Below are positions 1 to 56,300 of a stretch of DNA of 64,000 nucleotides, one piece after another. Origin of the DNA: Telopea speciosissima (Eukaryota; Streptophyta; Magnoliopsida; Proteales; Proteaceae); NCBI RefSeq assembly GCF_018873765.1, contig NC_057926.1, forward strand, positions 48,661,043 through 48,725,042. The letters run 5' to 3'. Both the position numbers and the translations under genes were made by a program. The notes under the pieces are model-generated. The model saw only the letters and a program-made list of their open reading frames with translations, ran no database searches and was not told the DNA's origin. Positions within the stretch are counted from its first letter, which is position 1; each line of letters begins with the position of its first letter.

Positions 1-1123
1 GGAGACTTTGTTGTTTGTTGGTCTTTTCATTATGATGTCATTTACACTTCCCCCCTCCCCTACCCCCCCCCCAAAAGAAGGAAAAACTGATTAAACAGCA
101 GAATCCGAAGACAACTTGCTTTGGTTTGCTTTAATGATTTTATTATGGGCAAGAGTTCTCTGTGAAGGGGGAGCATGGCCCCTGTGTGCATGTGGCCGCA
201 TCAATAGGACAGTCATTACCGCCTTTCAAGGGGAGCAGGGCGATCATTTCACCCTCTTCTGTGTCTGGGTACAAGGCGCACACTCCCCCCATAGAGAACT
301 TTCTCCTTTTTATTATATGGTCTAATGTACATTTTACATTTATTTTTTTTGGTAAGACATTTTAAAATTATTCAAGTACCTACAAGTAATTTTTTTTTGG
401 TAGGAATGTATCTACTAGTATTAATATTGGGAAAAAGAACACAGCCTGGTTGTGTGGTTCCTACGCCCAAACACTGGAGCACGTGAATTTACTTTCCTGC
501 CCCCTATGAAATTAAAAAACCTGTCCTTGTTGATGCCCCTATGCATGCTTGCTCTCATCGGACCACATGCTTGTGAAGATGTTGTATGACAAGGCAACAA
601 TCTCTTGCCCATTATTATTATAGGAACGAGAACGCTGTCAGGCTGCATAGCATACACTAAACACTTCCTTATGTCTACCTCTCTCTTCACATTGTCACAC
701 AAGGAGGCACTATTGTATGATATGTAGCCTGATAAGGAACTCAATCCCATTATTATTTGAAATACTCCCAAAGGACCCTTTATCCTCCTATTTCATGCGA
801 ACACTTCAGTGTTTGATTAAATGTAACAATGTTTCATTTTCGGAACAAAAAGGGCAATGCTCTTGAACACCAAAACATTTTTCACAAAGATTAGAACTCA
901 AAGGAAGGGTCTGATGGAGTAACAACAAGAAGCGTCGAATTCGCTCACTGCAAGGGGCTCTCTAGGCAAGACTCAAAAAGTTAGGAGAGTGAAGAGTTGG
1001 GATGGTATTACGAAATGCTTTACAAGAGGTGGTGGTGGAGATTGAGAAAGGAGACACCATACCAGTACTATTGGGTGCCGTTTCATTGAGAAAGGAGACA
1101 CCATACCAGTACTTTTGAGGCTC
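1..1123. repeat. Left arm of a large inverted repeat
   Basis: This stretch is the near-exact reverse complement of 5039-6162. Base 1 pairs with base 6162, and similarity ends just after the GAGGCTCT shared at about 1117-1124 and 5038-5045. Differences are scattered substitutions plus small indels in the C/G run near the outer tip. The arm may extend left of the window. It is a mosaic: a foldback MITE-like segment at about 146-307, a second MITE-like segment at about 445-650, and the mirror of a LINE zinc-knuckle fragment at about 683-973. Two near-identical direct repeats of about 26 bp lie at about 1053-1120. Confidence 0.93.
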
Positions 1124-3471
1124 TCCAGGCAAGACTCAAAAAGCCGACCACCAATGTCTCATTGGTCCGTGTTTCAAGAGGCATTCATGTAGGTTTTGCT
1201 TGAAGAATAACTCCAGCAATATGTCTTTTGGCTCGTGTTTCAGAAGACAACCATTAACATCAAGTTGCAAGCTTTAATAGTTCGTGACTGATAGAATTGT
1301 GAAGGCTTCATTAAATTCGTTTTTGTGAAATTAAGCGATTTGGTTAGAGTAGTTGTAGTGTAAATACCAAGTTGTAAACCTCATCAGTTTCAGATTTGAC
1401 AAGTTGTAATAAGTTGTAATAACTTCAACAAATACCGACTGCAAGTAAGTAATTTGATTTTCAATCTTCTTCCATTTCTTCTTCCATTGAGATTTTCTTT
1501 TCCTTAAAAATCCTTGGAGCAATTGAGGCACTAGAAAGATCTCATTTTCGATCTTGTTAGAAGTTGGATTTTATTCCAACACATTTCATTGAGTCCAACT
1601 TCAGGGTAAGTGGGTGTGTGTTTTACTTGAAAAAATGTTGCTTTTGGTGAGCTTGATTCCCCCCTCCCTCCTCTCAAGTTCAAAGAAACGGATGAAGCAC
1701 CAGATTGAAATGGCTAGTGAAGAGAACTAGGAAGGGTAACAATCTTTTGAATATTGAAACATTAAAATTTTGGCAATCATTGGAACTGGAAATTTGTTGC
1801 CTGATAATCTATCCTTAACCTTAATTTAATAATACATCTTTCCAGTTGCTTAACTAGGATAAGAATTGAAAGGAGTAATTAGCATTTGGTGTTGCAGTTG
1901 TGTAAATGATGCCAGTTTTTTACTTGTACCCATGTTCTAGGAGATAGGATTTATCAGAGTTTGGCATCTTCTCACTCATTTCGATGTTCTAGGAGATGGG
2001 ATTTATCAGAGAGAGAGAGGGGAGTTTAAGAAAACAAAGTCTTATAGGGGCACGCATTGGTTGTCATGTTGTCTAGGGGACCCAAAGCATTGGAAGGGGC
2101 TTGATTGCAGGGCCACACCAACAAGGCGAGCAAGGTGTCCAAGATGGCAAGGTGCCTGGACGCCTTGACAACTATTAAGATGCGTGTCACAATAAGGGAT
2201 ATATTCCTATCTTGATGGGTCGTTGGGTGTCTTAGACAGTTTTAGTTTGCTTTGGTTGTTCCTATTTTATGTAAGTTTTCCTATTATAACTATATGTAGA
2301 GTCGTAGTGCAACTTAATTTTCCTTCTATAAATAAAGGACTGTAGCCCACAATAGACACATACTCTCAGTCTGTCGTGGTTTGGGAATTCTTCTTCTCTT
2401 CTCTCTTTCTTCTTCTTTGGTTCTGATTTCTCAAGTTCTTAAATTGTCACAACAACTATATGTTGATTGTTAATAATCGACTCATTAGCTGGGTGAGCAC
2501 CCTGTTTAGGATCATGTAGGAAGTTTACTACCCAGAAACAACACTACCTACATGATTCTAGGGTTACCTTGCAAATTCCCAATTCAATATTTTAAATTGC
2601 AGGACTTCTTCACAGCTGCCAATTGTTTTCACATTGATGTATTTGCTGTAGGCAGACTACTTACATATGTCTTCCCTGTCTTTTCCGTCAGAATTTTCCC
2701 AGTAGCAATTTGAATTTCCTGGAATCCCTATTACCAGAAGTTGATATAGCAGCTACATCTATCAAATAATAGCAATAAGCTGATAAAAGACTCATGCCAT
2801 TCACAAAGGAAACTTTTAATGAAGTTGTCATTCATTTTCTTTGATCTCTTTATTTATAAGAAACCTCTCAAACAAAGTTCTTGACTCAACTTACGAAATA
2901 TAACCACAGGCTCTAGATATCATTCAACCTAATATATGCTACTAATAATGCAGAAGAGAACGGGACTTTCATTTTTGCAAGTCCTTATCCTACTCAAGAG
3001 AAGGATCTTAGGAGATTGTAGGTAGCATTTATTCGGAATTTGTTCCAGCTCCAACTAGTAACTTCTAGAAAATTTCTAGAACTTGAACTTAAGATATACT
3101 AGAATGCTTACAAAATTTTAAAACCAGATAGTGTAGAAACTACAATATTCAATCATTGTTATATTATTCTTGCTACCCCACACATGGTCCCTTCTGGGCA
3201 ATGGCTGAAATGTTATAACGGTGTCTTGTTCTTTACTGCTTCTGAATGAACACAAATCCATATACAAGCATGATAAGCATGATGTGCATTATCACAAATA
3301 ACTGTAAATGAAAGGATGCTAAAATTTTCAGAAGTTACAGCTGCACTGCCTGCACAGTAGTTTTGCTAATCTAACTTGCTTACCTTTCCTTTTAATGGGA
3401 TTGAGCTCTACCTTGTAGAATACAGTTTTATTGTTTCCATTCCTCATAACAGATGGCTTGTTTAATTTTAG
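1124..3471. other. Spacer between left arm and OTP51-like exon, with LTR-like debris
   Basis: There is no convincing coding region. At about 1122-1145 the arm motif CTCTCCAGGCAAGACTCAAA recurs, echoing a similar sequence at about 957-977 inside the arm. Bases about 2170-2480 look like an LTR remnant: CTATAAATAAAGGAC (about 2327-2341), then a CT-rich leader, as in many plant LTR transcript starts. Bases about 2050-2180 contain an AAGGCG/CGCCTTGACAACT-type repeat that recurs near 10755 and 20095. The last part, up to the AG at 3470-3471, is probably intron sequence of the OTP51-like copy. Confidence 0.45.
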
Positions 3472-5038
3472 GTGTACAAATGGATGATCCAACAACACTA
3501 GTTTCGGTTTGATTTTGCACTAGCTAGTAGGCTAGTAGATTTTATGAGCAAAGAGCAAAAATATTCGAAGTGTCGGGAGATATTTAATGACATAATCAAT
3601 CAGGGTAAGGTGCCTAGTGAATCTACATTCCATATTCTGACTGTTGCATATCTCAGTGCACCTGTTCAAGGTTGTCTGGAGGAAGCATGTGGCATTTACA
3701 ACCGCATGATTCAGTTTGGAGGCTACCAACCCCGCCTTAGTTTACACAATTCTCTTTTTAAAGCTCTCACTAGTAAACCTGGAGGTGCATCAAAATGTTA
3801 TTTAAAGTAGGCAGAGTTCATTTTTCATAACTTGGTATCATCTGGATTTGCGATACACAAGGAGATTTATGCTGGTCTGATATGGCTCCACAGTTATCAG
3901 GATAATATAGATAGAGAAAGGATAACCGAACTGAGGAAAGAGATGCAAGAGGCAGGAATCAAAGAGGGAACAGATGATCTTCTGTCCCTATTGAGAGCTT
4001 GCTCCAAAGAAAGAGACACAGTGGAAGCAGAAAGAACTTGGCTTAAACTCCTGAAATTTGAATGTAGTCTCCCTTCTTAAGCTTTTGTTTATCGCATGGA
4101 AGTCTATTCAAAAGTCGGAGAACCTATGAAATCGTTGGAGATATTCAGAGGGATGCAGGAACATTTGGGGTCTACCAGTGTTGTGGCATATCATAAGATC
4201 ATAGAGGTGATGTGTAAAGCCCATGAAATGGAAGCTGCAGAAACCCTAATGGATGAGTTCCAAAATAGTGGTCTAAAGCCCCTTTTGCCTTCTTTTATTG
4301 ATCTAATGGGTATGTACTTCGATTTGAGCTTGCACGACAAAGTGGAGTCAACTTTCATCCAGTGCCTTGAGAACTGCCATCCCAATCGAACTATTTACAA
4401 TATATACTTGGATTCATTGGTAAAAATTGGTAAAATTGGTAATATTGGCAAGGCCGAGGAGATCTTCAACCGAATGCTCAATGATGTGATGATTGGTGTC
4501 AACACTCGGGCATGCAATGTCATCTTAGGATTGTATCTCTCTTCTAGAGAGCATGTGAAGGCAGAAAAGATATATGAGTTGATGTGTCAAAAGAAATATG
4601 ACATTGAATCTCAACTGATGGAAAAAATTGATTATATTCTGAGCTTAAAGAGAAAGGTGGTTAGGAAGCCCATAAGTCTAAAACTCAGCAAAGAACAAAG
4701 GGAGATCTTGGTTGGCTTGCTATTGGGTGGTTTGCAGATAGAATCGGATGAAGAAAGGAGGAATCATGCACTCTATTTTGATTTCAGTGAAAACTCTGAT
4801 GTACATTGTGTTCTAAAAAGACATTTATTTGATCTGTACCATGAGTGGTTACATTTCTCTGGTAGGTCAAATGATGAGAGTGATGACGTACCAAATCGAT
4901 TCTCTACAATTGCACATACTTATTTTGGCTTTTATGCAGACCAGTTCTGGCCCAAAGGCCGCCCTATGATTCCGAAGCTCATTCATCGTTGGCTATCACC
5001 TCATGTTCTAGCATACTGGTATATGTATGGGGGCCTCA
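3472..5038 (+). pseudogene. OTP51-like PPR-LAGLIDADG gene fragment, decayed
   Basis: One continuous frame from a 3' splice site (TTTTAG, 3466-3471) encodes pentatricopeptide-repeat helices followed by a LAGLIDADG maturase-like domain. Key segments are REILVGLLLGGLQIESD (about 4705-4755), SYFGFYA-like HTYFGFYADQFWPKG (about 4915-4960) and LIHRWLSPHVLAYWYMYGG (about 4978-5034). This order is that of OTP51, a nuclear-encoded chloroplast protein needed to splice ycf3 intron 2. Three in-frame stops break it: TAG at 3499, TAG at 3808, TAA at 4078. The N-terminal exons are missing, and the C-terminal part after the second LAGLIDADG region is lost at the arm junction. The frame is otherwise open for about 520 codons, so inactivation looks recent. 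It is a dead copy; a working OTP51 should exist elsewhere in the genome. Confidence 0.88.
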
Positions 5039-5189
5039 GAGCCTCAAAAGTACTGGTATGGTGTCTCCTTTCTCAATGAAACGGCACCCAATAGTACTGG
5101 TATGGTGTCTCCTTTCTCAATCTCCACCACCACCTCTTGTCAAGCATTTCGTAATACCATCCCAACTCTTCACTCTCCTAACTTTTTGA

Positions 5190-5480
5190 GTCTTGCCTAG
5201 AGAGCCCCTTGCAGTGAGCGAATTCGACGCTTCTTGTTGTTACTCCATCAGACCCTTCCTTTGAGTTCTAATCTTTGTGAAAAATGTTTTGGTGTTCAAG
5301 AGCATTGCCCTTTTTGTTCCGAAAATGAAACATTGTTACATTTAATCAAACACTGAAGTGTTCGCATGAAATAGGAGGATAAAGGGTCCTTTGGGAGTAT
5401 TTCAAATAATAATGGGATTGAGTTCCTTATCAGGCTACACATCATACAATAGTGCCTCCTTGTGTGACAATGTGAAGAGA
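5190..5480 (+). mobile_element. LINE zinc-binding (zf-RVT) fragment inside the right arm
   Basis: The plus-strand translation reads RRFLLLLLHQTLPLSSNLC, then CPFCSENETLLHLIKH. This is the layout of the cysteine/histidine-rich zf-RVT domain at the end of plant L1-type LINE ORF2. One in-frame stop follows the HLIKH segment. The mirror copy is in the left arm at about 683-973 on the minus strand. It is non-functional debris, but it shows that the arms duplicated an already nested sequence. Confidence 0.6.
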
Positions 5481-5855
5481 GAGGTAGACACAATGAAGCG
5501 TTTAGTGTATGCTATGCAACCTGACAGCGTTCTCGTTCCTATAATAATAATGGGCAAGAGATTGTTGCCTTGTCATACAGCATCTTCACAAGCATGTGGT
5601 CCGATGAGAGCAAGCATGCATAGGGGCATCAACAAGGACAGGTTTTTAATTTCATAGGGGGCAGGAAAGTAAATTCACGTGCTCCAATGTTTGGGCGCAG
5701 AAACCACACAACCAGGCTGTGTTCTTTTTCCCAATAATAATACTAGTAGGTACATTCCTACCAAAAAAAAATTCCTAGTAGGTACTTGAATAATTTTAAA
5801 ATGTCTTACCAAAAAAAATAAATGTAAAATGTACATTATACCATATAATAAAAAG

Positions 5856-6017
5856 GACAAAGTTCTCTATGGGGGGAGTGTGCGCCTTGTACCCAGACAC
5901 AGAAGAGGGTGAAATGATCGCCCTGCTCCCCTTGAAAGGCGGTAATGACTGTCCTATTGATGCGGCCACATGCACACAGGGGCCATGCTCCCCCTTCACA
6001 GAGAACTCTTGCCCATA
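5856..6017. mobile_element. Foldback MITE-like repeat (right arm copy)
   Basis: A segment of about 160 bp bounded by inverted ends: TTCTCTATGGGGGGAGTGTG at the left, and the complement of GTTCTCTGTGAAGGGGGAGC at the right. The mirror copy is at about 146-307. Diverged relatives with the same inverted ends lie at about 31231-31383 and 37537-37695, and partial ones elsewhere. It has no coding capacity. The inverted ends, small size and several copies fit a non-autonomous DNA element; the superfamily is not determined. Confidence 0.65.
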
Positions 6018-6162
6018 ATAAAATCATTAAAGCAAACCAAAGCAAGTTGTCTTCGGATTCTGCTGTTTAATCAGTTTTTCCTTCTTTTTTATTGTTTTGG
6101 GGGGGAGGGGGAAAGTGTAAATGATATCATAATGAAAAGACCAACAAACAACAAAGTCTCCA

Positions 6163-7126
6163 CTACGTCAACCAGCCAAGGAGGAAAATCCAGAGTCCAG
6201 CAGAATTGATAACCCTGCCAAAAGCATACATGGAAATCGAATATGCTGCCTTAATTTGATCTCTTGAAACCCACCTACAATCAAAAGACTTAAAAAGTGT
6301 CTTTAATTTCCCAACAATCCAATCCAATATTATGATATCCCAATTTAATTCATCTAAATCATCCGATCGAACAAGAGTAACAATACCCTTGGCAATCCAA
6401 AATATCCAAGCAGTTGCCATGGCAAATCAAACTTATCAAAGCTTTTGGATCACACTCTCATGGACCAAGCAGGTCTGTGGGAGCCATCCCAGGATGCATC
6501 ATGCATTCCAAGACTCTACGCTAGAATGCATACAGGTTTCAAAACAACCATGCAACCACCAAAAGAGTTGTGCAAACTTAATAGATGACAAAAATTATTT
6601 CATTTTTCAGATCTCAGCAGATATTTTGATGCTGAAGTGATTACCAAGAAATTATGTTTGCAGATGATTTGCTTTGGAAAAAGAGGAGAAAGATCATGTG
6701 GTACATGTCCCAAGAGCCAAGAGTATAGCATATTTGTATATCTATAATTTAATGAAAAACCAAATGATCAGAAGATATTTGGAAAGTAAGAAACTTAAAA
6801 GTATATAACATTACTTTGATTTAGATGTTCAGAAAAAAAACAAAAACATAAATTAGCAGTACATAGAACATGATGTTCAACATCTCAGCCTGGTTCCAAA
6901 TTGGCATTCATTAAGAGAAACTAAAAACATCTGAAGCTCAAGTGTTTCCAACCTATTCAACGAATGGAATTTCTTTTTATGTACACTCGGTTTCAGTCTT
7001 GGACAAATGATCCCAGTCTCAGCCTGACCAGACTGTTCAATGAAAGACCCTCACTCAAGGCTGGCTACTATGGCATGCAAGCATAGCGCTGCCCAACAAA
7101 TGGAAGTTGGAAGAGGGAAAGCAGCC
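6163..7126. other. Region between inverted repeat and ALIS stop codon
   Basis: No coding region was recognised. The part nearest the ALIS stop (roughly 6800-7126) is likely its 3' UTR, because the last coding exon ends at 7127 on the minus strand. An ORF at 6163-6420 (minus) has wording like degenerate LINE RNase H text (MATAWIFWIAKGIVTL...), but this is too weak to call. Confidence 0.35.
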
Positions 7127-10100
7127 TTAATTATAATGCCCTGCTGGATTTCTGTTCCATGATAAGAAGGATGGATCCCCCAGTGGCCTGCAAAATAGCA
7201 ACCTCAAGCTCAATAAATGTGCAAACAGGTTCTGTACAGAAGGATTTTACTTTCCATGAAAGGAGTAGATATTATAATAATATAATATTGATGACAGAAC
7301 TGTTGCAATGTGGAAGGTAACTAATATATTGATACACCTCAATATGCAATTTAAATACTGAAATTGTCCAGACTTAACCTCACTTCTCTGAGAAGGCTAT
7401 AAATAGAAGTAAGCAGAAAAAAACAAGCCAACTGGCCAAAACCAGGCAAAAGAGAAAGGAGGGGGAAATCATTCATAAAAAAATGAGACAAGAAATGCCA
7501 ATGAGATTTCATTATTACACTTCCACCAGGTCAAGGCAGGACAATTTGCCTAAGCCATAACAAAGCCAGAATCCAAACAGTAGGAGCGATTGACAGATTA
7601 ACCACTCAAATAAATTGCTCCAAAACTTCAGAGGCCATAAACCAATTAAAGATGATAACGGTATTCATCATATTCCTCCAGACATTTATCTGATGATTCA
7701 TACAAAAATAATACAAAAGTAACTAGGACATTTTATAGGTGGGATCAATCAAATGGTGCATCCTGAACCATTCCCACCCACCGACTTTTCCCTTTTATAT
7801 GTAAATGTGCACCCAAAGGTGGATAGGATGGTTCTTCCCATCTGATGCAGATCTACTTTCAAAATCATAGTGGTAGTACTCCCAAATTTTAAAACCAATC
7901 ACATGTTTTCTTCACCTACAAAAATAGCTCCACAACTTGCTCCATATACCGTCTACCTAGAAAGTTTCTGCCAAGTCCACATCTTATTTTTCAGAATCTA
8001 ATGGCTTCTATTTTCTATATCATTATTTGGGCCTTGGCCAGAGTGGTTCAAAAAAAGCTACTGTTTTTTAGATGGCAAGTAGAGACAAAACTCAGGTATT
8101 TAGACATATCTTCAACCAAATGATCTAAGTCATTTTCCAATTTCTGATTCTTGAGCTTCAGTAGGATATCCGAACCGCTCAAGGAACTTGTCCCAAGTTG
8201 CTCAAAACAGGGATGTAGGAAAGACTTTATTTCACATATTTACTGGATACATGTCTCAGTTGATTCGGTTCATGTACATACTAGTACAAAAAGTATTTAT
8301 AGCAGGATTAATTTCATATCTTAAAACAAACGGACACACACTCGCTGACAACAACACCCTAACCCACCCACAAGCAGGTGCTAAATTTTCTTTTTCCCTA
8401 AATAGAAGCATTTTCCATGTCTATGTCATGTGAATAATATGCAATGCAGTAGGAGAAACTCAAATTCTACCACATCCACTTCTGACCTTTTAAATCACGC
8501 TGTATCAGTGAGCTCAATAAGCGTAGATAACATATTAAATTTAGAGGATCACAGTGGATTCTTAGATGATTAGTCCATAAGTATTTCACCTCATACAAGG
8601 AGAACCATACCTTAAAATAAGCTAGCCAACCTGACTGTACAGCAAGTGCAGTCTATTCCAAGAAGAAATTGACCAATAAATTTGATATGCAAAACAACTA
8701 CAGATGGATTCAATTCTAGGGTTTTGTAGCAGATTGTGATTTGTGAGTAGATTTAGAACCCCAATCATGACAACAAACCCTAACTAGGATTACTAGGACT
8801 CACATTAGATCTATTTTAAAGAGCGACCTAGTGCACGAGGCTCCCGCTACTGCAGGCTCTGCAAGGGGCAAATGTACGTAGCCTTACATCCTGCTTCGCA
8901 GGACAGGCTGTTTCCAAGTTTTGAACCTGCAACCAATAGGTTGCAATAGCGCAACTTAACCTTTGCACCAAGGCTGTTTCCTTTCACATTAGATCTATTT
9001 TCCGAGCCTGAAATCCCCTTTCAAATGTTTTTAATCACAATTAAATTAAGTAATGGATTAAAGTATCATATCGGCCAATACGTATCGGTATCGATACGAT
9101 ACTGACTGATACGTCTCTTTTTAAAAAAAAAATGTATTGTCTCGATATGTATCGACCGACAAGTGTACGATATGATACAGTCGATACATATCGATACACT
9201 CGATACGTACTAATATTACCATTTGTTTGGTTTTTAAATGTATCGATACGAACCGATACATATCCATACGTATCGATACACATGCCTTTTTTCACATTTT
9301 ACACCAAACATAACCCCCCAACCCTCCTCGACACGAACTAAATCTCAACTTTCTCTTCCTTCGGGTCTCGCCACAAAACATGTCGGGTTGGGTCGGATCC
9401 ACATCGCACTCGAATCCTTGGAATACAAGACATCCTCAACACTTGAAGGGAAAGGTAGGTTTTTTTCAAAAAACTTGATCTTTTGTTTCAAATCTTGCAT
9501 TTTACTTCTTTTTTTGTTTGCTACGATTCAAGGAGAATAGATTCAACTAACTATTAGATGCATGCTTTATACACATTTGCAAAGATTTGAACTCAAATCC
9601 ACCATTTTTCACCTAAAACCGAAAATGACTTCCTTAAGGGTCAGTATCATGCTTATGTTCGGTCAGTACACAACATCATCCTAGTTGCTCTTATTCTTGA
9701 AGATCCTTACAGACATGAGTTTGATCCACCCCGACATTGTTCATGGAAATAGAGTGACTCTGCGTGTAAGAATCTCATCTTTTCTAACAATTTCAAAGTG
9801 CTACACTTGTCTAGTTATACATTATTCACAATTCTTAGTGTATATGCATGATATATGACATATATTGCTTGTTTATATTGTTTTTTGTGTCCAAAAGTGT
9901 ATTCTCATGTATATTTTGATCATTTTCATGCATTTCTGCACCGATCGATGATACGATACGTCTCTGAAAATCGCCCGGCTGATACAATACCCAATACCGA
10001 TACTTCAAACCTTGGTTTCAACTGATATAAAGTAAATGAATGGAATCTCACAGCCAACCAAAGGGAGTTGAAAAGCTAGTGAAGTTTAAACTAACCACTC

Positions 10101-13100
10101 TAAACATCCAAAGTAGAAAAGCAATTTCAGCAACTCAAAACCAAGTAACAGAACTAAATCTCACTATGCAGTAGCCACAGCAAGAAAAATAAAGCTAACA
10201 GTACAAGTAAATAACGGTAAAGAAATCTTCCTCTGCTAATCAAGACCAACAGAACTGCTCTTTTGGTGATAACTGAAGCCTTTAAATAGTTATGCTTCAT
10301 ACATACTTACCACAAAAGTAACTAAGACAGAAGATGCCTTATGCCTAGATAGTGAAGTCTATAGCTGATGATGGTATAGACCTGGGATCAAATCCTGTCT
10401 CTACACATTTATCCAGCCTTAGGCCAAAAAAATTTTAAATCTATTCCAGGCCAGTTGGTTAGTCTATGTCTACTTACTGAAGCAAGAGATTTTGAAGAAG
10501 AAAGCACAGTCCGCTAGTAAAGTGAATGGGAGTCAGAACCTAGACATGGGATACAATAATGCCTTCACCCCCAACATTCTAACAACTAACCACTGACAAT
10601 CTCACATACGCCCACCCAATCCACCCCAACATTCTAACAACTAACCACTGACAACTTACCCTCTACAGGCAAGTATAAGTATACTGGATGGTCCAGCATG
10701 ATACACTTTCCGACATGGCCAAATTGTAGAAATAAGACAAACAGCCCGTCCAGGTCCATAGTCATCATGGCACTAAGGTGAGGCAAGATAGTGGCCAGGT
10801 GCCTAGGTGTTGCCTTGGTGCATTAGGCATCCCCTGAAAATTTATAGGGCAAAGTACCTTAATTCCACGATTCTATTATAATGATTTTCATGGAAATCTA
10901 TAGTTTTGGTAGTGTACCCTCATACAACCCTATCATATCTTATTTATTTATATATTAAGTAGATGTAGTTTTTGTTTGTTTCCCTTTCCCCATCCGTGAA
11001 CATAAAGTCCCAAATACTCTATTCGCCTCACTAACAGGTATGTCTTCCTCTATTCTGCATCTTCTTCTTTTCTGCTTCTCCAGAGTGGCAGAAACAGTGG
11101 CCGCTATTGCTACCATCTCTGGATCTCCGATTTTCTCTTTCAAATCCACCAGATAATCACATTTTCCCCTAAAGTCCTGGCGCCCAGAAAATTTGGTAAG
11201 CGGTTTCCTTGGACCCCAAAAACAGCTTTGTTGCCTAGGCAATATAATGCAGGAGCATGATCACAGTTCTGGTTTTTGGTCTAGTTTGGTTCAAAACATG
11301 GCTGATGGTTCAGGTCTGAATTTCAGGAACCTTATCAGGTCATAGGTCGTGGGCCCCAGTTGGAAGTCATTTGTAGCTTGCTTCAAGATTTTCAGGAATC
11401 AACTCTCCAAGATAAATCGTGGAATCTAAGTTTAGGATTTATTTCTTTGTTTTAATATCAAAGTAGTTGGTTGGATAAGGGACTTGCTAAGTCCAGTCTT
11501 AACCGGTTGTTATTTCAGTTTTTGGGTCTGTTTAGAACACCCAAATACAGTTTGCAGAAGGAAGTTTCCTTCATTGTTTAGGTTTACTTTTTAAGAGTCA
11601 TATTTGTAATGGGTTGCTCCCATTACAGCATGCATATGGAGAGTTCTTAAAGTCCAGTTGTTTCTTTCTTTATTTAATATGTTTTTTGTCTACAGATTCA
11701 AGTCGTGCAAGAGAACTTGCAAAAGGTTAAAGCGAATCTTGAGGAGACTCAGTGATAATTTAAAGAATTTACGAGACTATTGCTGCTCACATCTGGCCAT
11801 ATGTATACTTCCTTCAACAAACTGATCTGACTTGTTGAGCAATGTGTGGGAGAGTCAGAAGACGAGTTGATCGAGGAATCTTCTGAAAAACGAAGGTCCT
11901 CGAACTGAGCTCATGATCGTAACTTCAGATTAATTGATCAAAGAACCGATTGAAGATAAGAGTCTCATATGGAATATTATGTTAAAGAGGGGCAAACTGA
12001 GATCATCCCGTTAGGGTTTGAACATGTGAGATTTTTTCTTCCATAACATATCTTCAACGTCAAAATTTCAACAGTCACTGATTTTGTTCATTTTGTTCAT
12101 AAGAAGCATTAGATCATCAAATCAAGGTGGTTGATTGTGGATGCTGATTGAGAGGTGATAATTCTCATTCTACAAAACTTGTGGGCAAGTTTTTTCAAAC
12201 AAGGAGGAAATTATGCCAGGCCATGACCATGGTTTTTGGTCTGGCTTCGTTCAACCATCGTTGATGGTTCAGATCTGGTTCTTCTAGAAACCGAATATCA
12301 TGGAGCTGTTTGAAGACTTTTTTTTTATGGTTTACGGGTATATTTTTGCTGAATTTCAGGAATCTTATTAGCTCACAACTCACGGGGCCCAGTTGGAAGT
12401 CTTTTAAAGCTTGCTTACAGATTTTCAAGAATCAACTCTCCTAGATAACTCGTGGAGTCTAAATTTAGGATTTATGTCTTTGTTTTAATATGTAAGTAAT
12501 GTAGATGCGAGTTCAACAAAGAACCAACACTACAGTAGGATCGATCTACGGATATTCTCAGGCCTGGCTTCATGTAACAATCAAACATCAATTCCAGTGG
12601 GTGATTCCGTCTTTCGAATGGTCTTCAGCAGATCAGTAACTTTCGGGGCAGAACTCTCACTGAAATCGATGGAATAGAAGATTAAAAAAATAGGAGGATA
12701 ATTTGGATTGAGCCTCTCACTCTCTCCCGGGTCTCTCACCCATGGCCTCTCACTGTATACCACTGCATCTCACGGCCATCTGAGTCTCACAGAATAAAAG
12801 TGATGGGGGCATCATGCCGCACCACTACCGGAGGCCCTTTATGCACCAGTACCAGAGGCGCAGGAGACTACCACGGAGCCAGTTACTATGGTTCGATGAT
12901 GCTTTCAGAGGCTATAGGCTAGCACGGGGCTGTTTAGACTTCTAGGGTTATTTTGGTCATTTTTTTTTTAGTATTTAGGTTGAAAAAGTGAATGACATTT
13001 TTGTATTTTTATTTGTTTAATTCTGCACTTTAGTTTCAGCCTTATAACTTATGTGAGGGCACTTTAGGTACTTTGGTTATTTATTTGAGTTTTAATTTGA

Positions 13101-16100
13101 TTAGGGGTATTTCTGGTATTTACATATTCAGTCTTTATTTAAGTTGTATTGAGACTTTGTTTGCAAGTAACGAATGAAGAAATGAAGATTTGAAAGCAGT
13201 CACTGCAACTCTCTCCCCCTCCCCCTTTGCGATTTCTCTCCCTTTCAAAGGTACGATCTCTCTCCCTCTTATCTCTTCCTCTTTCTTTCTCTTCCCTTTC
13301 CCCATGTCTCCCCTTTCTCTTCTTTCTTTTTTCCCTGCTGTCATGGTCCCTCTTTCCCCCTCCCTGCTGCTGTCGTGATTTCTTTCTTCCCCTCCCTGGT
13401 GTTGCCCAAAACCCCCATCCCCTCCGGTCCCTTGCAACCGAAATAACCCAACCTCCATCTCCACCACTCCCCTTCCATCCCCCAGTCGTGACCCCCTTTT
13501 CCCTTCCCTGTCCTTGTAACCGAAGCACCCCAGCCCCATTAAAAATTATTCCCTCCATTCCCCTCCTTCTCTGTTAGTCAAAACCCTTTGTTTCCCCTCC
13601 CTAAACCAGTCCCTAACCATCCCAACCCCATTTCCAGACTTCACCTAGAAATCATAGCCCCCAAACTAACCCCTACAACCCATCCTTTCTTTAAACCTAG
13701 AAACAGAATTTTATTTTGATCATGTTTGCATGATTTCCCACTAATTTCAGATCTGAAACAGTATTTCTCCTATACTAGTTGTGCTGTTTTGGTATTGCAT
13801 ATATTTTTAATGCTTATTATCAATGGCTTATTATCTTATATGGACTGTCATGCATGCCTACTGAACCCTTGAATGTAATGCCATGAATTTACTTACCTAG
13901 CCTTGTGGAATTCACCATATAGGTTGCTAGAATTGATTCCTAAGACCTATTGGTGTTCATGCATTTGATTTCTATTGATAATTGCCATTAGTAAATTCTG
14001 TTTTTATGTCTGATGTTGCATGTGGCAGTGCGAATTCCAGCCCTTGTATTAAGTCCCCACTAGGGTGTTACACCTGTAATCCTGTCCTATTGTGGGATTC
14101 CTTAGCTTCTAGGGTTTGTCCTGCATCAAAAAGATAAGACTCAAGCCAATATTTCATTAATCGAATTCGTGTACAAGGCTGTAGCCCCATACAAACTTAT
14201 ATAGAAGACTCAAAACACTAAAAAGGAAAGGCCTAACCCAATCCTTAACTATTAAGGTAACATATATTGACTAGGAAACTAAAATAATGAAAGAAACCGG
14301 CTCATAACAGGACTCTAATTAAACTAATGAAGCAAATCCCGTTTTCCTACTTTCTACCCATATTTTAGATTCATTAAATTCGCCAATTACAAAGTAAACC
14401 TATGGGATCAAAAGCCCAACACCTACATAACCCAACCCAAAGTTTATTTTCAATAAAATAAGCCTTTTAGGTGATTTATCTACATCAGTAAGTAGTTGGC
14501 TGGATTAGGTACTTCATAAGTCCAGCCTTAAAAGTTTGCATAAGGAAATTTCCTTCACTATTTGGGTTTCCTTTCTTAGTGTCATATTTGTAGTGGGTTG
14601 CTCCCATTACAGCATGCATATGGAGCGTGTCCTAGAATCAAGTAGTTTATTTCTTTATTTAATATATTAGTTGTTTTAGGACACTCCAAATTAGCTTGCA
14701 GCTAGAGGAGTTAGTTTAATAGATGTACAGGGGATGTTAATGGAATTGATTTAATTTGTTTGAAATTGAAATCGTTGCCTCCTCCCTACTCTCTCCTTTT
14801 GCATTCAACCCACAATTCTGAAATTTTGTTCTTCTCGTCCTCATTCTCTCTTTCTTTTCCACCAGTAGATCCATCTCAATTAATCTGCATCACGACACCT
14901 TGATAACTATGAGCTTAACATCTACCTTTAATCATATTTTCATGTTAAAAATACCCAAAATGGATTATCCTCATATCCAGTTTACATTTGTAGTATCAAT
15001 GTCAGAAAAAATCACACCACAAAAATAAAACTGAATTGTAGTTGTTTTGGATTAGCAATAATTTCTATCACCAAAGAGACGAAAGAGAAAAACATAAGCT
15101 GTTGTAGTTGAATGTATCTTTTCAATTATTTCTCGAAAGAATTGAGGGTTTACTCTTATTTAACTAATTTCTATGCCAAACGAAAAAAATTGAGATTGGA
15201 TGCAAGGTCAAGAGTCAAAAAAAAAAAGAATATAGAACCATAAAGAGAAAATGAGGAAGTCACTCACCTTGGCCTAATCACATAAATAAGTATGAAGCTT
15301 ATTGCCAAGAACAAGCACATTCCACCAACCATTAGATATGCTATGCCCAGGAAATCATTTTTCCCTCCTATCCAACTGGTAGTTGAAATAACTAGTTTCT
15401 TTTTGCCCCCAAAACCATAGGTGTTATAGTTATTCTGTATGACCACTGTTATCTTTTCATTGGCTTCAAGGTCAACCTCTATCTTCCCATAGAGCTTTCT
15501 GAAAGTTGGCAGTGCCGCTGTTCGCATCCAGACAATAAGATCCACTTGCTCACTCAACTGTCATCAAAATAATAACAATAAAAAAAAAAGGCCAACTAAC
15601 AGGAGTTCGAAAGGAAGTACGTGAAGAAATTTTGTATCCAAAATAAAGGAACCTAGCATAACAGGCAAGGTTTTAGATTAATATGGAACTTACAGGTATG
15701 CTTGAATTAAGTTTGCCACCCCCAATCAAGCTCCCACTCTGAAAGTTTTTAGGGAAGACATCAGACCCAAACTTTTTTTCTTGATCACTTTTCCAGGCAA
15801 TATCTTTCTTGCTGACTTTTAACGGCTTTTTATTTACAGAAAACCCATACGTGTCATTGAACAAGCTCCAAGCGATAAGCCCACAAGGAACAATTGCAGA
15901 CCCATTTGCTGTTGTGTCTTCAGGAGCACAAGTACTTGTTACGCTTGCATATGAGCTGCTACTCAGTTGTTTGTCACTTCTGCTTTTAACATATCTGGAA
16001 AAATAAAATGGAAGTAGAATCATCCACAAGCCCAGAGGTAGTGTTCAGATTTTTTCAGAAATATGTATAAGCAAGCTCAAATATGTTATCCGAACAGGAA

Positions 16101-19100
16101 ACACAGAAAGAATCATCTACTGGACCAGAGAGGGTTCTGATATTCTGAAGACAGCATCATACATTTAGGCACAAAACCCTGACAAAGCCAGAGAGAGCTT
16201 ATTTATGCTTAAAGTGTATAAAATGACATGAATATGACACCCACTTTGAAACATCTAGGCATATAGCCAGTACTTTGTTTGCATGAAAACCATCCCATCG
16301 TAGCTTGTATCGACTTTAAGGAGAACTATAACTGAGATGTTTTTGAGTCTTTCTTAGGACTAAACCAACTAGCTGGTAAGAGCTTCTGTATTTGATGAGC
16401 AATATATAAAACTTTGAAAATGTAGAGTGGATTCTGAGGCACTTGGATAAGTTTTATTAAAAGGTCCAGGCTGTCCTGCAGGGATCAAACAAAAAAACGA
16501 AGGGAAAAAGAAGATGCAAACAATAATTAAACTTGGAAAAGGTATAGGTAGTTCCAAGCAATACCAAAAATATAAATACAAATAAATATGTAGGGGAAGC
16601 AAAAATTTCATGAGCTTCTTGATTGGTTGATCCAGACTGTCCAAAGCTCGGTCCCCCAGTAGATTGAACATTAGAAACCAGACCCATCCAACTACCCCCA
16701 TGATTCATGTGAAAACCGCCGATCATATGATCTGGGGTGATGTGTTTATGACATGCAGATCCTATATTTGGGGCACGTGATTCCTAAATTATGTGAGTAC
16801 AATAAAGCAGAAAATTTTCTTGAAAGAACTCGAACTAAGACCCCATCTTTATGAGAAAGCATTAGGACCAACTCAGCTAGGCATGGTTGCAATTACACTT
16901 TACCCTTTTCTTCAAAGTAAACAAACAATTATCTTAAGAAGTCATTCTTTGTTCATATTACATACATGTAGGCACAGACGCAATTCTGCTCAAAATGTGC
17001 ACCAAACTTTTGGAGCTTCCCAGATTTCTGCTCCAAAGAAACCTTGCTCCATAGTCCCATTTTGCTCAATGGTCTGTCTACTTAGAATTGGTTATATAAA
17101 GTTTCATACTGCCTTGAAAAATTCTCACTATCTGGGACATTAAGGAGGTACCCATTTCAAGGAGAACCACATCTCTTCTTTTAAGGCATAGCTTTCAATA
17201 TTCTAAATGAAGTCAACCAATAGAGATCATAGAGATAGGCGCAGACATGACAGAGATGGATACAGAGAAGACAGGGACAGAATTAGAGAGACCCTCAAAG
17301 GCCTAATTTTGAGGAGTATTTGAGATCCTACTTCACTTCAGATGAAGCTTCCAATCGAAGGTATGACACACAAAAGGTGAAGCTTGAGCTGAAGGAGTTC
17401 GATGGGAACCATGATCCTCAGGTATTCTATGACTGGGTTGCTGCCCTTGATGATTATTTTGATTGGTATGATTTGCCTGAAGATAGAAAGATGAGATTGG
17501 CACGTACCAAGCTGGTTGGCCCTGCCCGAGAATGGTGGCGCACTGCAGAGAGGGACATGGAAGTATGGAACGTGATGGCCATGCACCTACTATCTGGGAA
17601 GACATGAGGTATGATTTGAGGGAGAAATATCTGCCCAAGCATTACAGAGCACAGTTGAAGGATCAATTCAACTCCCTCCGCCAAGGGACTATGACCGTAC
17701 TGAGTACATGCAGAAGTTTGATGCCCTTTCTTCTCGTACTAGCACTAGAGAGGGTACCACTCAAATGCTATCTCGGTTTCGACTGGGATTGAGGGCTGAT
17801 ATTATCAGAGCTATCGGTGTAGCTGATGTCAGGGATGTTCGGGACTGTTTTGAGAAGGCATTGAAGGCTGAAGAGTTATTGGCTGCCAATAGAAAGTTTG
17901 TTTCTTCTGCCGTCGACACCAATAAAACTTTTCCAGCCTCCAAATCTACTGCTAATGGTTACACTCGAGCTGGACATTCTGCTGCTGGTTCTACTCGATC
18001 AAGCCCTTTTGTTGGTAGTTCTTCCAGCCCTACAGCCCCTCCACGTGCTGATCATAAAGGTAAAGCTCCCATGGACAGCAATGCTCCCTACAGGTGTTTC
18101 CACTGCAATGAGATTGAACATTATGCCAAGGAATGCCCACAAAAGCATAAACCTGTTAATGTGGCTAAGAAGGAAGATGAAACCCCTAACAATGACAATG
18201 ACCCGGGTTTCCATGCTTATCCCCCATCCGATGATGATAACTTAGCTGGTTACTATGAAGATTTGGGAAGTGATACTCGAGGTGTTCATGTTATTACTCA
18301 AGTATTGATGGATGAAGTGGTTGAAGATGAAGTGGTGGTTGAGAGCATTCCCCAGGAAGACAATGACATTCAAGATGCGGTTCTAGAAGAGATAGAGCTC
18401 GATGAGAAGGCTACTAACATTGAAGACTCTATGGAGGTTGAACATATAAAGTTTGTGATGCCAACTTGGTTCTTTGAAGAGAAGGCTCCACGACTTGAAG
18501 ACTTTATTCCTACTGTTCCAGCCTCACCAGAATTTTGTTCGAGAAGTGTTAAAGCTGCCACTCACATGTTGATTCCTCCTCATCACCACAAAATTCAAGG
18601 AAGAGTTTCTTCAAGTCAAAACAGTACTTGGAGTCATACTAATGATGTCAAGAAGCTTAGCCCCGGGTTGCAGGAGTGTTTCATGGACTTAACCCATTCA
18701 TCGGAGATGAATGTTTTTAAGTAGGGGAAAGTTGATGCAGATCCAAGCATCCACGAGCTGAAGAAGCCACCCTAATCATAGGGTCTTAGCTAGGAGCCTT
18801 AGTTATTTTAGCCTTAGTTAATTTTAGTTTTTTTTTTTCAGTTCAATTGTAAACTTAAATTGAACCGGTTCATATTTGGTTCAATTGGAGTGAAATGATC
18901 CTATTGGCTGTTAGGATCTTATATCTAATTGTTTTTAAGTTGTTTATTCCTACCTCTCCACGATTTCTGAAAGGAGAGAGAATTAGATTTGTATTAGGAA
19001 TTAGGCCTTAAGCCTATTATTTATAACAAAACGTGGGAGGCTCCCCCCACAGAATTTTCAGACTTAAAAATCATTTTTTATGCTGCTGCCACGAATGCTG

Positions 19101-37536: not shown

Positions 37537-37695
37537 TCTATGTGGGGAGTGTACCCCTGTGCCCAAACACATGGGTGCAAAATGATTGCCCTGCCCCCAT
37601 GAAAGGAGGTAATGACTACTTTGTTGATGTCGCCATGTGCGCTCCTATTGGCACATACACATGTAGGGACCACGCTCCCACAGAAAATTCTTGCT
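37537..37695. mobile_element. Foldback MITE-like repeat, intergenic copy
   Basis: Inverted ends: TTCTATGTGGGGAGTGTACC at the left, and the complement of GAATTTTCTGTGGGAGCGTG at the right. The interior AAAATGATTGCCCTGCCCCC with GGAGGTAATGACTAC matches the right-arm copy at 5856-6017 block for block. It lies about 0.75 kb upstream of the AGO1 TATA box. Confidence 0.65.
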
Positions 37696-39954: not shown

Positions 39955-42900
39955 ATGGTGAGGAAGAGGAGAACTGAACTTCCTAGCAGCAGTGGGGAGA
40001 GCTCAGAATCCCAAGATGCTGGTGCTGGCCGTGGTGCTCAGCGCCCAACAGAGAGAGCTCCTCCAGCTCAACAAGGAGGTGGGGGAAGGGGCCCAGCCCA
40101 ATCTCAACAACAACCTCAGCAAGGAGGTCGGGGAGGATATGGAGGTGGATATCCTCCCCAGGGACGTGGTGGGTCCCAGCCAAGGGGTGGAATGGCACCT
40201 CAACAGTATGATGTCCCCCCTGAACATCAGGGTCGGGGAGGCCAGCCACGTGGAATGCCACCTCAACAGCCTATGGAAGCTCCCCTTGAATCTGCAGGGA
40301 GGCGCCGAGGTGGTGGCAGTATGGTTGGTGGTCGTGGGGGAGGGCCTACTTCTGGTGGCCCACCTAGGCCACCAGTTCCCGAGCTGCACCAAGCAACCCA
40401 GGCTCAGTATCAAGCAATGGTGAGCCCTCAACCGGTACAATCTGGGAAACCACCCCAGTCATCCTCTCAAGCCAGTTCTTCGCAACAGCCACCCGAGTCG
40501 AGCACTGGACTGGTGACACAGCAATTTGAGAAGCTTTCTATACAACCTGAAGGGGAACCAACACAGGCAATTCAACCTATTGCCCCGTCCAGCAAATCTA
40601 TGAGGTTTCCACTCCGCCCTGGTAAGGGCAGCACTGGGACGAAGTGTATAGTCAAGGCGAACCATTTCTTTGCTGAGCTTCCAGATAAGGATCTGCACCA
40701 ATATGATGTGAGTTCATATCCCCAACCTTCATCTTTTGTTAGCTGCTTAACTATATGTTGGTTATGGTAACCATACATCTGTTTTGTCTAGGTTTCAATT
40801 ACACCGGAAGTTACTTCACGGGGTGTGAACCGGGCTGTGATGGAGCAGCTAGTGAAATTGTATAGAGAATCACACTTGGGAAGGAGACTTCCTGCTTATG
40901 ATGGGAGGAAGAGCCTTTATACTGCTGGACCTTTACCTTTTACTTCAAGAGAGTTTTCAATAACTTTGGTTGATGAGGATGATGGCACGGGTGCTCCCAG
41001 GTCATGCCAAGATGCATCTGTCTCTTTCACTGTTTCTCATGATCTGAATTTTATCTGTGCTGATTTTGTGTGATGTGTTCTGTCTTGACATAGGAGGGAG
41101 CGGGTGTTCAGAGTTGTCATCAAAATGGCTGCTCGTGCTGACCTTCATCATTTAGGTTTGTTTCTGCAGGGGAGGCAGGCAGATGCACCCCAAGAAGCTC
41201 TTCAGGTCCTTGACATTGTTCTCCGTGAACTGCCTACTGCAAGGTACTTCTGTTTTGATGACATTTCAACAGTCCTGTCTATTGTGTTTTGAGTTATTTT
41301 GTGAATTTGGCCTGTTTTTTTTCAGTTTGTCCAAGTGAATTTAAATTTTATTTGTTGTTTTGTATGTCGTTGTAGGTATTCCCCTGTTGGCAGATCATTT
41401 TATTCCCCAGATTTAGGAAGAAGGCAGCCACTTGGTGAGGGATTAGAAAGTTGGCGTGGTTTTTATCAGAGTATACGGCCTACTCAGATGGGTCTCTCGC
41501 TGAATATAGGTAAGATCATTATATTTAGCAAGAGCCAATGTCTGAATAGTTTTGGCATGTCATGTGTATTGCTATGCTGAAGGCTTCTGAGCTGTACTGT
41601 TTTGTAAGTTGATTCTTCTGCAATTTGGTTTGTAAATTCAATATGCCTCTTTGTTTCACTGGGCTTTCGCTGAATTTCAATAGTATAGTCAGTAAACTGA
41701 ATCGTGAGCCAGATGCTTGTACCCCTCATAATGGAAGTCTTATTTGTTGTGATGTTGCAGATATGTCTTCCACTGCTTTCATTGAGCCGCTGCCAGTCAT
41801 TGACTTTGTAAATCAGTTATTGAACCGGGATGTTATTGCTAGGCCATTATCTGATGCTGATCGTGTAAAGGTTAGTTTCTAAGCTTGTTTTGTTTCTCAC
41901 TGAGGTAAACTATTTTAATTTTGCTCTGGCGGCCTCCTGTCATTTACTGCCTTAACGTTTTTTTTGTGGGACCCTTCATTTTTTCTGAATTCTTATATCA
42001 AACTTAATGAATGTAGGTACTTCAACTAATCAATTATACCTTCTGCCTGTATTCAAAATTCTTTTATCTGTTGTAATTGTTTATTGTTAACAGATCAAGA
42101 AAGCTCTCAGAGGTGTGAAGGTTGAAGTTACTCATAGGGGAAATATGCGCAGAAAATACCGTATATCTGGTTTAACTTCGCAAGCAACAAGAGAGCTAAC
42201 GTGAGTGTTAATGTTTTCTTTTGCAACTACGTGTACTTGCCTTGTTATTTCCTCCCTTTTTTTGTGATATTGTTCATCCATGATTATGGTTTCTCTAAGT
42301 TGGTGGTTTCACTGTATCTATGCATTACAGCTTCCCTGTTGATGATAGAGGAACAATGAAGTCTGTAGTCCAATATTTCCAGGAGACATATGGGTTTGTT
42401 ATTCAGCATACACAGTGGCCATGTTTGCAAGTTGGTAACCAGCAGAGGCCAAATTATCTCCCAATGGAGGTCAACTCATATCACAACTGTTGTGATCTTT
42501 CCATATGTTGTCTCAATTTGCTTGGTTACCAATCGTAAAAATGATTGCAGGTCTGCAAGATTGTAGAAGGGCAGAGATACTCAAAGAGGTTAAATGAAAG
42601 GCAGATTACTGCTCTGCTGAAAGTGACTTGTCAGCGTCCTCGTGAACGAGAACTAGATATTATGCAGGTGCTTTACTGCTGCAAAGTCTTTCTTGACTGC
42701 CCTTTCCCCCCTTAAAAAATCTCAGAAAAATTCTGTCTGCTTTCCAATTTTGCGTATATTTGAAGTTCTTTTTTGATCTCTGATGATGGTAATTATTATA
42801 TTTTGGGGCTTTACTTATACCTTCAACATGCCCTAACAATTAAGCAATTTAGAAATATTTCATAAATTGCTTGTCAACATTTTTCATTTTTAAAAACAAA

Positions 42901-53364: not shown

Positions 53365-56300
53365 TCAACCGAATATCCTATAAGTTAGTTGCATGTTCTC
53401 AATAAGTGATTTCCCAAGTGAAGAGTAAAGGGTTCTGTACAAGTAAATGGGGATGTGATCTTACCTTTGCAATCGGGTTTGTGTACGCCTGAATTCAAAC
53501 CAAACAAGAAGATGTGCAATGGTTAGTGTAAAATTTAGAGATGAAGTTTCATGGGTAAAAAATCTTAATGTGGAGATACTAGTCATGTCTGTAAAGAACT
53601 AGAGCATGAGGGCAAGGGCCTTGATATTATAAAGGCCTGCAAAGTAGATTAGTTATCACATTAGTACCTTTGTGGTGGTTGCTTCTGTGTTTGAGGTTTA
53701 ACTTCTGGCTTTGATGCTGGTTGTTGGGTTCCATCACTTGGGATGGATAAACTCTTTGCCTGTAAGAATCCCACATAGGAACAGGTAAGTAATACTGAAA
53801 CTGTTCTGTTTGCCTTTTCCAATTATTTTTTATGGTACCCAAAACACTGGTAACCAACTTACCAAGTTTTTAAATTGGAGATTGTAGAACATTTGAATGT
53901 ATCTTTGTTTAGCTTGTTTTTGTTCCTTGTTCAACTGCCTCCAGAAGCCATAGATGGATCCCATGTTCAACACTCTGGTGGCATAGATATTCCACGTATA
54001 GCTTCAAAACACAATCATTCAAAAGATGAAAGTATCAGAGAAGGAAAACATAATTTTCAAACTAAAAATAAGTGAAATTTCTCGAGGAATCTATGACTTA
54101 ATTACCATTCATATATTCTCTGGAGACCTCCTGTGGATATTTTGTTCCAGTATTCAGGATCCTCCTTGGACTTCTCAAAGAAATCAGCAATCTTATTGCT
54201 TGACTCATCTCCATTGTTGGGATCAATATGGAATCCTGAGACCCCATCCACAATGATTTCGGCTGGGCCTCCCTGATTGGTTGCAAAGGTGGGTAGCCCA
54301 CAGTTCATTGCCTCAATGACCGTAAGACCAAAGGCTTCATAGAGAGCAGGCTGAACAAAAGCTCCCTTTGAGTCAGCAATGCAACGGTACAACTCTCCAT
54401 TCCGGACTCTATCATTCTGAGCTGCTATCCATCTGATCTGGCCTTTAAGTTGATATTTATCAATCAGGCTTTGCATCTTTTTAATCTCAGCTATTTCTTC
54501 TCTGTCTTTTGATTTGGATGGATCAAAGAAGCCAGCAACAACGACAAGATTGACCAGATTCCTTAGCCTCTTATTCTTACCATACCACTCCGTTAATCCT
54601 GTGATGTTCTTCACTATATCGAGTCTTGCCATTGAGAAGATAATTGGTTTCTTCCTATCTTCTAGAAATCCACTGTTCAAACCAGAGTTCAGATCAGACA
54701 TTAGAAATTTAGAGAAATAGTGCAAAGTAGTATTTCTCTTCAAAATGTACATGCAACATGAAAATGAAGGCATATGACTGTTGCATTACTTTAGTTTCAG
54801 AAGTTAAAAATGGGCAAGTGATCCTGGCATGTTTTTTGTGCTCAAGACACATAAACTCGTTGATGTCACAGGATGGAAGTCAAGTAAGACATTGGTTTGT
54901 TGTTTTTTCGCAGAGTATGCCTCTCAATCAAGATACATGAGTTGAAAGTATGAGACTCACAAGTGCTCATTGTTATCCTGTTTATTGTATAGGAGTTCTT
55001 CAATGGCAGGGTGAAATGTGGTCAACCGCTTCTGTTTCTGTGTGTATGGGAAGTAGAGAGATTGATCAGCACCAGGGGCAGCAATGTTGAACTTTGGATC
55101 AAAGACGTTGATGCCTGAGACTACTCGGCACAGCCCTGGTAGCGTAAATGCAGCATGGCTTTCATACTGTCCTGGCCTGTCCTTGCTGCAGATAAAATAA
55201 AACTGGAAGTTAATTTTTCAGCAACTTTTCTCTAGACTCAACTTGGAACGTAGTTAAACAAATCAAAAGTTATAATTATAACAATCATCAACTACTACTA
55301 AAAATTTGTGCAAGCTTATCATGAAAGCACCAAATTGGTAGAGTCAGTGAGAGACTTGGTGACTTTCCAAGAAAATATATTTACTCAATCCAATTTCAGA
55401 AGACCTTTAACCAGTTCAGGATTGAGATTGGTTGATTCAATCAAGTTCTTCTGAATTCTATGAACATTTAGACTTAGTAGGAGCTCTGACAAACATATTT
55501 AGACTTAAGTCTGAAATGTGGCACAGTGACTAACCTTCCTGCTATTTCTTGGTATGTGCTTGTGATGATGAAATCGGCAGAATTCATTGCGATCATGTCA
55601 GCTGTGAATTGGCATGAGAAGTGATACTTTCCATCTAGTTCTTTCCATTTGATGTCTGAATCTTCATACTTTGTCTTCTCTAGAGCATGAGCAATGGTTC
55701 CCTAGGTTTGGAGTTCATCAGATCAGTAACAGTTAAACTTGAGATCTACAAGTTGATCGAACTTGTAAATAATATGATCAATACCTGAGTTATCCCAAGT
55801 TTGCTTGCAATGAGAGATGCTGCCAGGTTTCCGTCAGTGTAGTTACCAATGATGAGGTCAGGCTTCCCATCCAAGTGATCAAGGATCTTGGCAGTGGCAT
55901 CCTGGGAATTCAGAAAGGTAATTTCTGACTGATATGATCTATATAAAAGAAAAAGATGCTGAAGCAAAATAATGGGTTTGCAATTGAACTGGGTACTTGC
56001 CTGAGTAAACTTCTCAAGGTAGGGGTAGATGTCGAAACGGGAAACCCACTGATGAAGGACACCACTTTCTGTCGTAAATGGAACTCGGAGGATGTGAGAA
56101 TGTCTAGTGTTTAAGACTGGCTCCAGCTCTTGGTTGCACTTAGTCCCTCGAGCATCAGGTATAAGTCGTGTAACCTGTACAAAATAAGCACTACTGTAAT
56201 CAACCTGAACTGGTGGTGATTATGAATGCTTCACAATGATTTCAGCATACCACAAGAATTTGAGGCTTGATACTCAGCCCTTGCTTCTTAATTCTAAGGA

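Follow-up and report, generated by a model that had tools for sequence, protein, structure and literature searches.

Two long arms of DNA in inverted orientation lie around a broken gene on C11 of the Telopea speciosissima assembly (822.9 Mb, 1287 contigs), raising the question of whether a transposon has captured a gene fragment or whether neighbouring genes have been rearranged in place. The window, i.e. the whole stretch of DNA analysed, is 64,000 nucleotides long (C11:48661043-48725042). Coordinates follow the window numbering and are extended below 1 leftward, 0 being the base just left of the window, and the self-comparison covered -20000 to +20000, including 20 kb of chromosome to the left of the window.

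The first-pass annotation had described two arms of about 1.12 kb, and these are readily found: 1-1124 and 5038-6161 align in inverted orientation with 97.3% identity over 1127 columns (E 0.0, far above chance; 97-99% in ungapped pieces). It had also proposed a unit of about 6.2 kb ending at 1 and 6162, but its left limit is simply the place where the window was cut, and a unit confined in this way is ruled out, since both arms go on: in the flanking chromosome the left arm runs 3.35 kb past the window edge to -3349, and the right arm reaches 15266. In the self-comparison -2349 to 1124 pairs inverted with 5038 to 8491 (3477 columns, 97.8%), and -3349 to -2348 with 14267 to 15266 (1003 columns, 98.4%), so that 5.8 kb (8492-14266) present in the right arm are absent from the left. 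The features of the locus inside the window are as follows.

1-1124 (+): left arm, in-window part; inverted copy of DNA downstream of ALIS/CDC50.
143-318 (no strand): dispersed short repeat, MITE-like, ~170 bp; genome matches 74-81%, spanning 137-319.
419-623 (no strand): second dispersed short repeat, MITE-like, ~190 bp; genome matches 71-76%, spanning 406-626.
982-1117 (+): cupin-like gene remnant; counterparts between OTP51 and ALIS on C6.
1119-1143 (+): 25-bp repeat of 956-980 (96%), crossing the left inner arm edge.
1125-1589 (no strand): spacer between left arm and OTP51 copy, 0.46 kb.
1590-3471 (+): OTP51 copy, tail of exon 1 (~16 bases) and whole intron 1; matches -7542 onward, GTAAGT at 1606.
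3472-5040 (+): OTP51 exon 2, partial, pseudogene; PPR repeats and truncated LAGLIDADG_2, with two TAG and one TAA.
5038-8491 (-): right arm, inner part; ancestral copy comprising ALIS downstream DNA, last exon and part of the last intron.
7130-7189 (-): ALIS/CDC50 last coding exon; same peptide stretch in the C6 homeolog.
8492-14266 (-): central stretch of the ALIS last intron, without counterpart in the left arm; conserved in part on C6.
14267-15266 (-): outer right arm; beginning of the ALIS last intron.
15267-15560 and, stop-to-stop, 15676-16044 (-): ALIS/CDC50 coding frames, Pfam CDC50; outside the inverted repeat.

The arms are the 3' end of an ALIS/CDC50 gene, made up of its last intron, last exon and downstream DNA. 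This gene, identified by Pfam, lies on the minus strand to the right of the inverted repeat, where the frames at 15267-15560 and 15676-16044 (their far exon edges are approximate) match CDC50 with E 4.6e-39 and 6.8e-23, respectively, the former also matching solved CDC50 chains of 13 distinct sequences. The intron and exon in the right arm are continuous with these upstream exons, and the outer arm end falls within ~1 base of the last intron's 5' splice site. A second copy of the last exon is present in the left arm (-1028 to -969), ~8.1 kb from the first.

A genome-wide comparison of 1-1200 gave 41 matches when 40 of 940 candidates were scored, namely the query itself, its inverted partner and 39 matches of no more than ~220 bp, and the two MITE-like repeats account for 39 of the 41. 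These repeats carry GGCAAGAG- or CTCTTGCCC-type ends, and 5866-5968 also matches 37537-37635. A LINE zinc-knuckle (zf-RVT) was considered for a 23-residue frame in the arm and rejected, Pfam returning only zf-Di19 at E 0.023, below the cut-off.

The parent of the enclosed fragment lies immediately left of the window. A direct repeat pairs -7542 to -4089 with 1590 to 5040 (95.2% in the self-comparison), and the parent OTP51 gene occupies -8153 to -3792 in the same orientation as the fragment, with its ATG at -8153, an open first exon of 209 codons ending at a GTAAGT splice site, an intron of ~1.9 kb and an open second exon of 618 codons. The latter matches LAGLIDADG_2 (E 1.2e-48) and PPR_2 (E 2.5e-19) in Pfam; the domain order, PPR repeats followed by a LAGLIDADG domain, supports the assignment of both parent and fragment to a putative OTP51 type, in agreement with the first reading of the decayed frame. 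OTP51 is described as needed for splicing of plastid ycf3 intron 2 in land plants (PMC9275481). The fragment retains 523 of the 618 exon 2 codons, and its LAGLIDADG_2 match is truncated to profile positions 1-117 of 168, about two thirds. Since it keeps the entire intron along with ~16 bases of exon 1, it is a DNA copy rather than a retrocopy, and since nearly all of exon 1 and the C-terminal end are absent and three stops interrupt the frame, it is unable to encode OTP51. The frame does stop at the inner edge of the right arm, as had been noticed, with similarity to the parent ending at 5040, a 3-base overlap with the arm start at 5038. The expectation that OTP51 would be single-copy is contradicted, there being two intact copies plus the fragment: a genome-wide search with the exon 2 protein gives three close matches, namely the parent, the fragment and a C6 paralog (84%; exon 1 and exon 2 both open), and the remaining 59 of 62 matches, 19-29% identical, are presumably other PPR proteins.

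The homeologous region on C6 provides a reference for the state of the locus without the repeat. There the OTP51 and ALIS paralogs are convergent and ~35 kb apart, in the same order as on C11, the ALIS paralog being 90% identical in the exon searched (three more ALIS relatives, at 65-77%, are found on C9 and C2). The 50 kb of C6 examined hold one OTP51, one ALIS and two cupin pieces, and both the spacer and the OTP51 copy are absent from it; the ALIS 3' end, single on C6, is double on C11 and inverted around the spacer and OTP51 copy. This plain order of OTP51 and ALIS facing each other on C6 indicates that the extra arm and the fragment are a rearrangement of the C11 locus. The synonymous divergence of OTP51 between C11 and C6, 0.35, would fit an ancient duplication of the entire segment. 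C6 also conserves 8212-8801 and 10014-10640, which lie mostly within the stretch missing from the left arm. Because parts of this stretch are conserved, we regard the right arm as ancestral and the 5.8 kb as deleted from the left copy; an insertion of these 5.8 kb into the right arm as a transposon is rejected on the same conservation, and by eye no flanking duplication is seen.

The cupin-like remnant likewise has its relatives on C6. Its first part (982-1086) matches two places there, at 80% and 76%, which are the cupin-like pieces C6:50589854-50589958 and C6:50572899-50573003, in opposite orientations. Pfam recognises the frame at the first of these as Cupin_1 (E 2.4e-12) and finds nothing in the C11 piece itself. 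Of cupin-like genes, the C11 arms show this remnant of ~100 bp and nothing more; at 1041-1117 a 33-bp repeat occurs twice, spaced 44 bp apart.

The two inner edges of the inverted repeat differ. The 25-bp repeat at 1119-1143 is intact over the left one but interrupted at the right one. We accordingly read the sequence as continuous on the left and place a rearrangement junction on the right; at this junction (5038) there are 3 bp of microhomology (AGA). Beyond its initial 25-bp repeat, the spacer has no match in -20000 to +20000, in the whole window or in 50 kb of C6. Taken together, the extra block between OTP51 and ALIS on C11 spans -3349 to 5037, and consists of an inverted ALIS 3' end that has lost 5.8 kb, then the spacer of 0.46 kb and the incomplete OTP51 copy in direct orientation. 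Two breakpoints lie near 5' splice sites, that at 15266 within ~1 nt (ALIS last intron) and that at 1590 within ~16 nt (OTP51 intron 1).

We compared the divergence of the two duplications, with simple repeats left out of the counts and of the Fisher tests. Between the arms 55 of 4426 sites differ (1.24%), and between the fragment and parent OTP51 116 of 3365 (3.45%), or 71 of 1805 (3.9%) in the intron only; arms and fragment differ in divergence with p 7e-11, and with p 1e-10 when only the intron is used. With all sites counted, K2P distances are 0.0155 and 0.0121 for the two parts of the arms and 0.0421 for the fragment. Judged from these alignments, this suggests two ages, the fragment being older than the arms. 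Transitions and transversions stand at 29:36 in the arms versus 94:47 in the fragment. Heavy cytosine deamination of the fragment was considered and rejected, parent-to-fragment changes of the C>T/G>A kind numbering 53 versus 41 of the T>C/A>G kind. With C6 as outgroup, the exon changes assigned to the fragment number 15 replacement, 3 stop and 9 silent, and those assigned to the parent 7 replacement and 9 silent, with 4 sites unresolved; the fragment is thus decaying.

The locus is an ordinary local genome rearrangement, and almost certainly one that took place between the convergent neighbours OTP51 (+) and ALIS/CDC50 (-) with no part played by a transposon. We think it likely that it arose in two steps, an old partial duplication of OTP51 and a later small inversion at whose edges the ALIS 3' end was doubled. 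In the older event a partial OTP51 copy would have been placed, reversed, beyond the spacer by the ALIS 3' flank, with its junction at ~1590. The OTP51 copy, spacer and ALIS 3' end would later have been inverted together, the ALIS 3' end also being kept in its old place; staggered breaks that were filled in, or an equivalent repair by template switching, would give the two opposed ALIS 3' ends and would leave two young junctions, at -3349/15266 and at 5038. These junctions may be polymorphic within the species, the arm divergence of 1.2% being little higher than the 0.76% heterozygosity given for T. speciosissima (PMC13080361). The inversion-with-duplication step, taken by itself, is rather favoured. 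That the older OTP51 copy lay reversed is a deduction, as no intermediate or uninverted relative has been seen; the proximity of breakpoints to two 5' splice sites is treated as coincidence in this two-step account. The fragment itself we infer to be a non-functional by-product. An inverted duplication that trapped the fragment, the other reading offered at first, comes close to this result, the refinement being that two steps with an inversion are favoured here.

In the main rival account, the arrangement was produced in a single replication-based event of fork stalling and template switching, passing from the OTP51 end to the opposite strand at ALIS, back to OTP51 and again to ALIS, with the arms later homogenised by gene conversion. 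Such an event would account for junctions at which microhomology is short or lacking, as well as for the mosaic of direct and inverted pieces, and gene conversion between inverted repeats is well known; if it homogenised the arms, the two ages would be unreal and a single event would do. In this respect it matters whether simple repeats are counted. When they are kept, differences are clumped in both the arms (variance/mean 2.27) and the fragment (3.57), none of 5000 shuffles reaching values as high, and the clumping in the arms, which would suit conversion, is seen with the simple repeat at 61-72 counted. When they are removed, there is no significant patchwork in the arms (variance/mean 1.29, p 0.11) or clumping in the fragment (1.26, p 0.13), and this even spread gives no clear sign of conversion tracts. 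The lower divergence of the arms (1.2%) than of the fragment (3.4%) also tells against a single event, as does its need for left and right inner edges that coincide, which the continuous 25-bp repeat explains without coincidence. We therefore regard the single event as unlikely.

Long inverted repeats are prone to misassembly, and an assembly artefact such as a misjoined haplotype was accordingly weighed. Against this, sequence differences of 1.2% and 3.4% separate the copies, one arm has lost 5.8 kb, three stops interrupt the fragment and no N occurs in the 20 kb left of the window, all of which makes an artefact very improbable.

The reading put forward at first, capture of the OTP51 fragment by a Pack-MULE or other transposon whose terminal inverted repeats are the arms, draws on the likeness of long, high-identity arms around a gene fragment in the window, but it has virtually no chance of being correct: the arms run past the proposed ends, they are the 3' end of a resident gene with parts that are single-copy on C6, the parent of the cargo is adjacent, the inner 1.12 kb matches over its full length nothing but its own partner among the 40 of 940 candidates that were scored, and no direct duplication is found at the proposed place or at the true outer ends. 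Pack-MULE and MULE elements are described as flanked by a direct target-site duplication of 9-11 bp (PMC3310237). At the true outer ends (-3370 to -3335 versus 15255 to 15290) there is no direct repeat of 8-12 bp with one mismatch or fewer, and the sequence expected as a target duplication at the left arm tip, ACTACGTCA, is arm sequence, present to the left as its reverse complement; likewise the bases following 6161, ACTACGTCAACCAG, recur to the left of position 1 as their reverse complement, apart from a single difference. A genome-wide search for further arms with other cargo had been suggested, and no other full-length inner arm was found among the 40 of 940 candidates scored. The first-pass annotation had itself named a lack of other arm copies, a missing target duplication and similarity extending beyond the window as observations that would count against its reading, and it is these that are found, the first of them among the candidates scored. 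A window edge can thus make an ordinary rearrangement of neighbouring genes look like a transposon.

The rearrangement resembles events known from other systems. Inversions through staggered breaks in Drosophila are described as leaving inverted duplications at their breakpoints (PMC7584159). As here, inverted copies flank a segment, on C11 a presumably reoriented one, and the breakpoint sequence is doubled only in the rearranged state; unlike there, the C11 rearrangement measures a few kb, lies in a plant nuclear genome, contains an older partial gene copy and has one arm lacking 5.8 kb. Complex duplications formed by template switching (DUP-NML-INV/DUP type), known from human genomics, join a direct duplicate, an inverted duplicate and a single-copy stretch in one tract. 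The C11 locus shares this layout and differs in that its two divergences argue for two events. With the homeologous region as reference for the plain order, it illustrates on a small scale an inverted duplication involving two plant genes, its parts being dated relative to each other.

Inverted gene duplications are reportedly sources of plant MIRNA genes, and the inverted ALIS last exon and its flanks, a few kb apart, bear some likeness to them. They differ in that the last-exon copies stand ~8.1 kb apart around a 3.9-kb loop and that the C11 locus is known from its DNA sequence. A read-through transcript could be predicted to form a hairpin with the 3.9-kb loop, and small RNAs from such a hairpin, arising from the young ALIS inverted duplication and its OTP51 loop, might conceivably dampen the ALIS flippase-subunit gene or OTP51, an effect we consider quite improbable. 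If it did occur, the locus would represent a very young step towards a MIRNA-like or hairpin-siRNA locus.

A tRNA scan of the window found none. Further frames in the window include the glycine-rich region of ARGONAUTE1 at 39955-40770 (+; Pfam E 7.7e-22), a group-1 glycosyltransferase domain at 54102-54773 (-; E 2.2e-31), sucrose synthase-like by eye, and a CCHC zinc knuckle at 17708-18724 (+; E 1.5e-4), which by eye resembles a retrotransposon gag.
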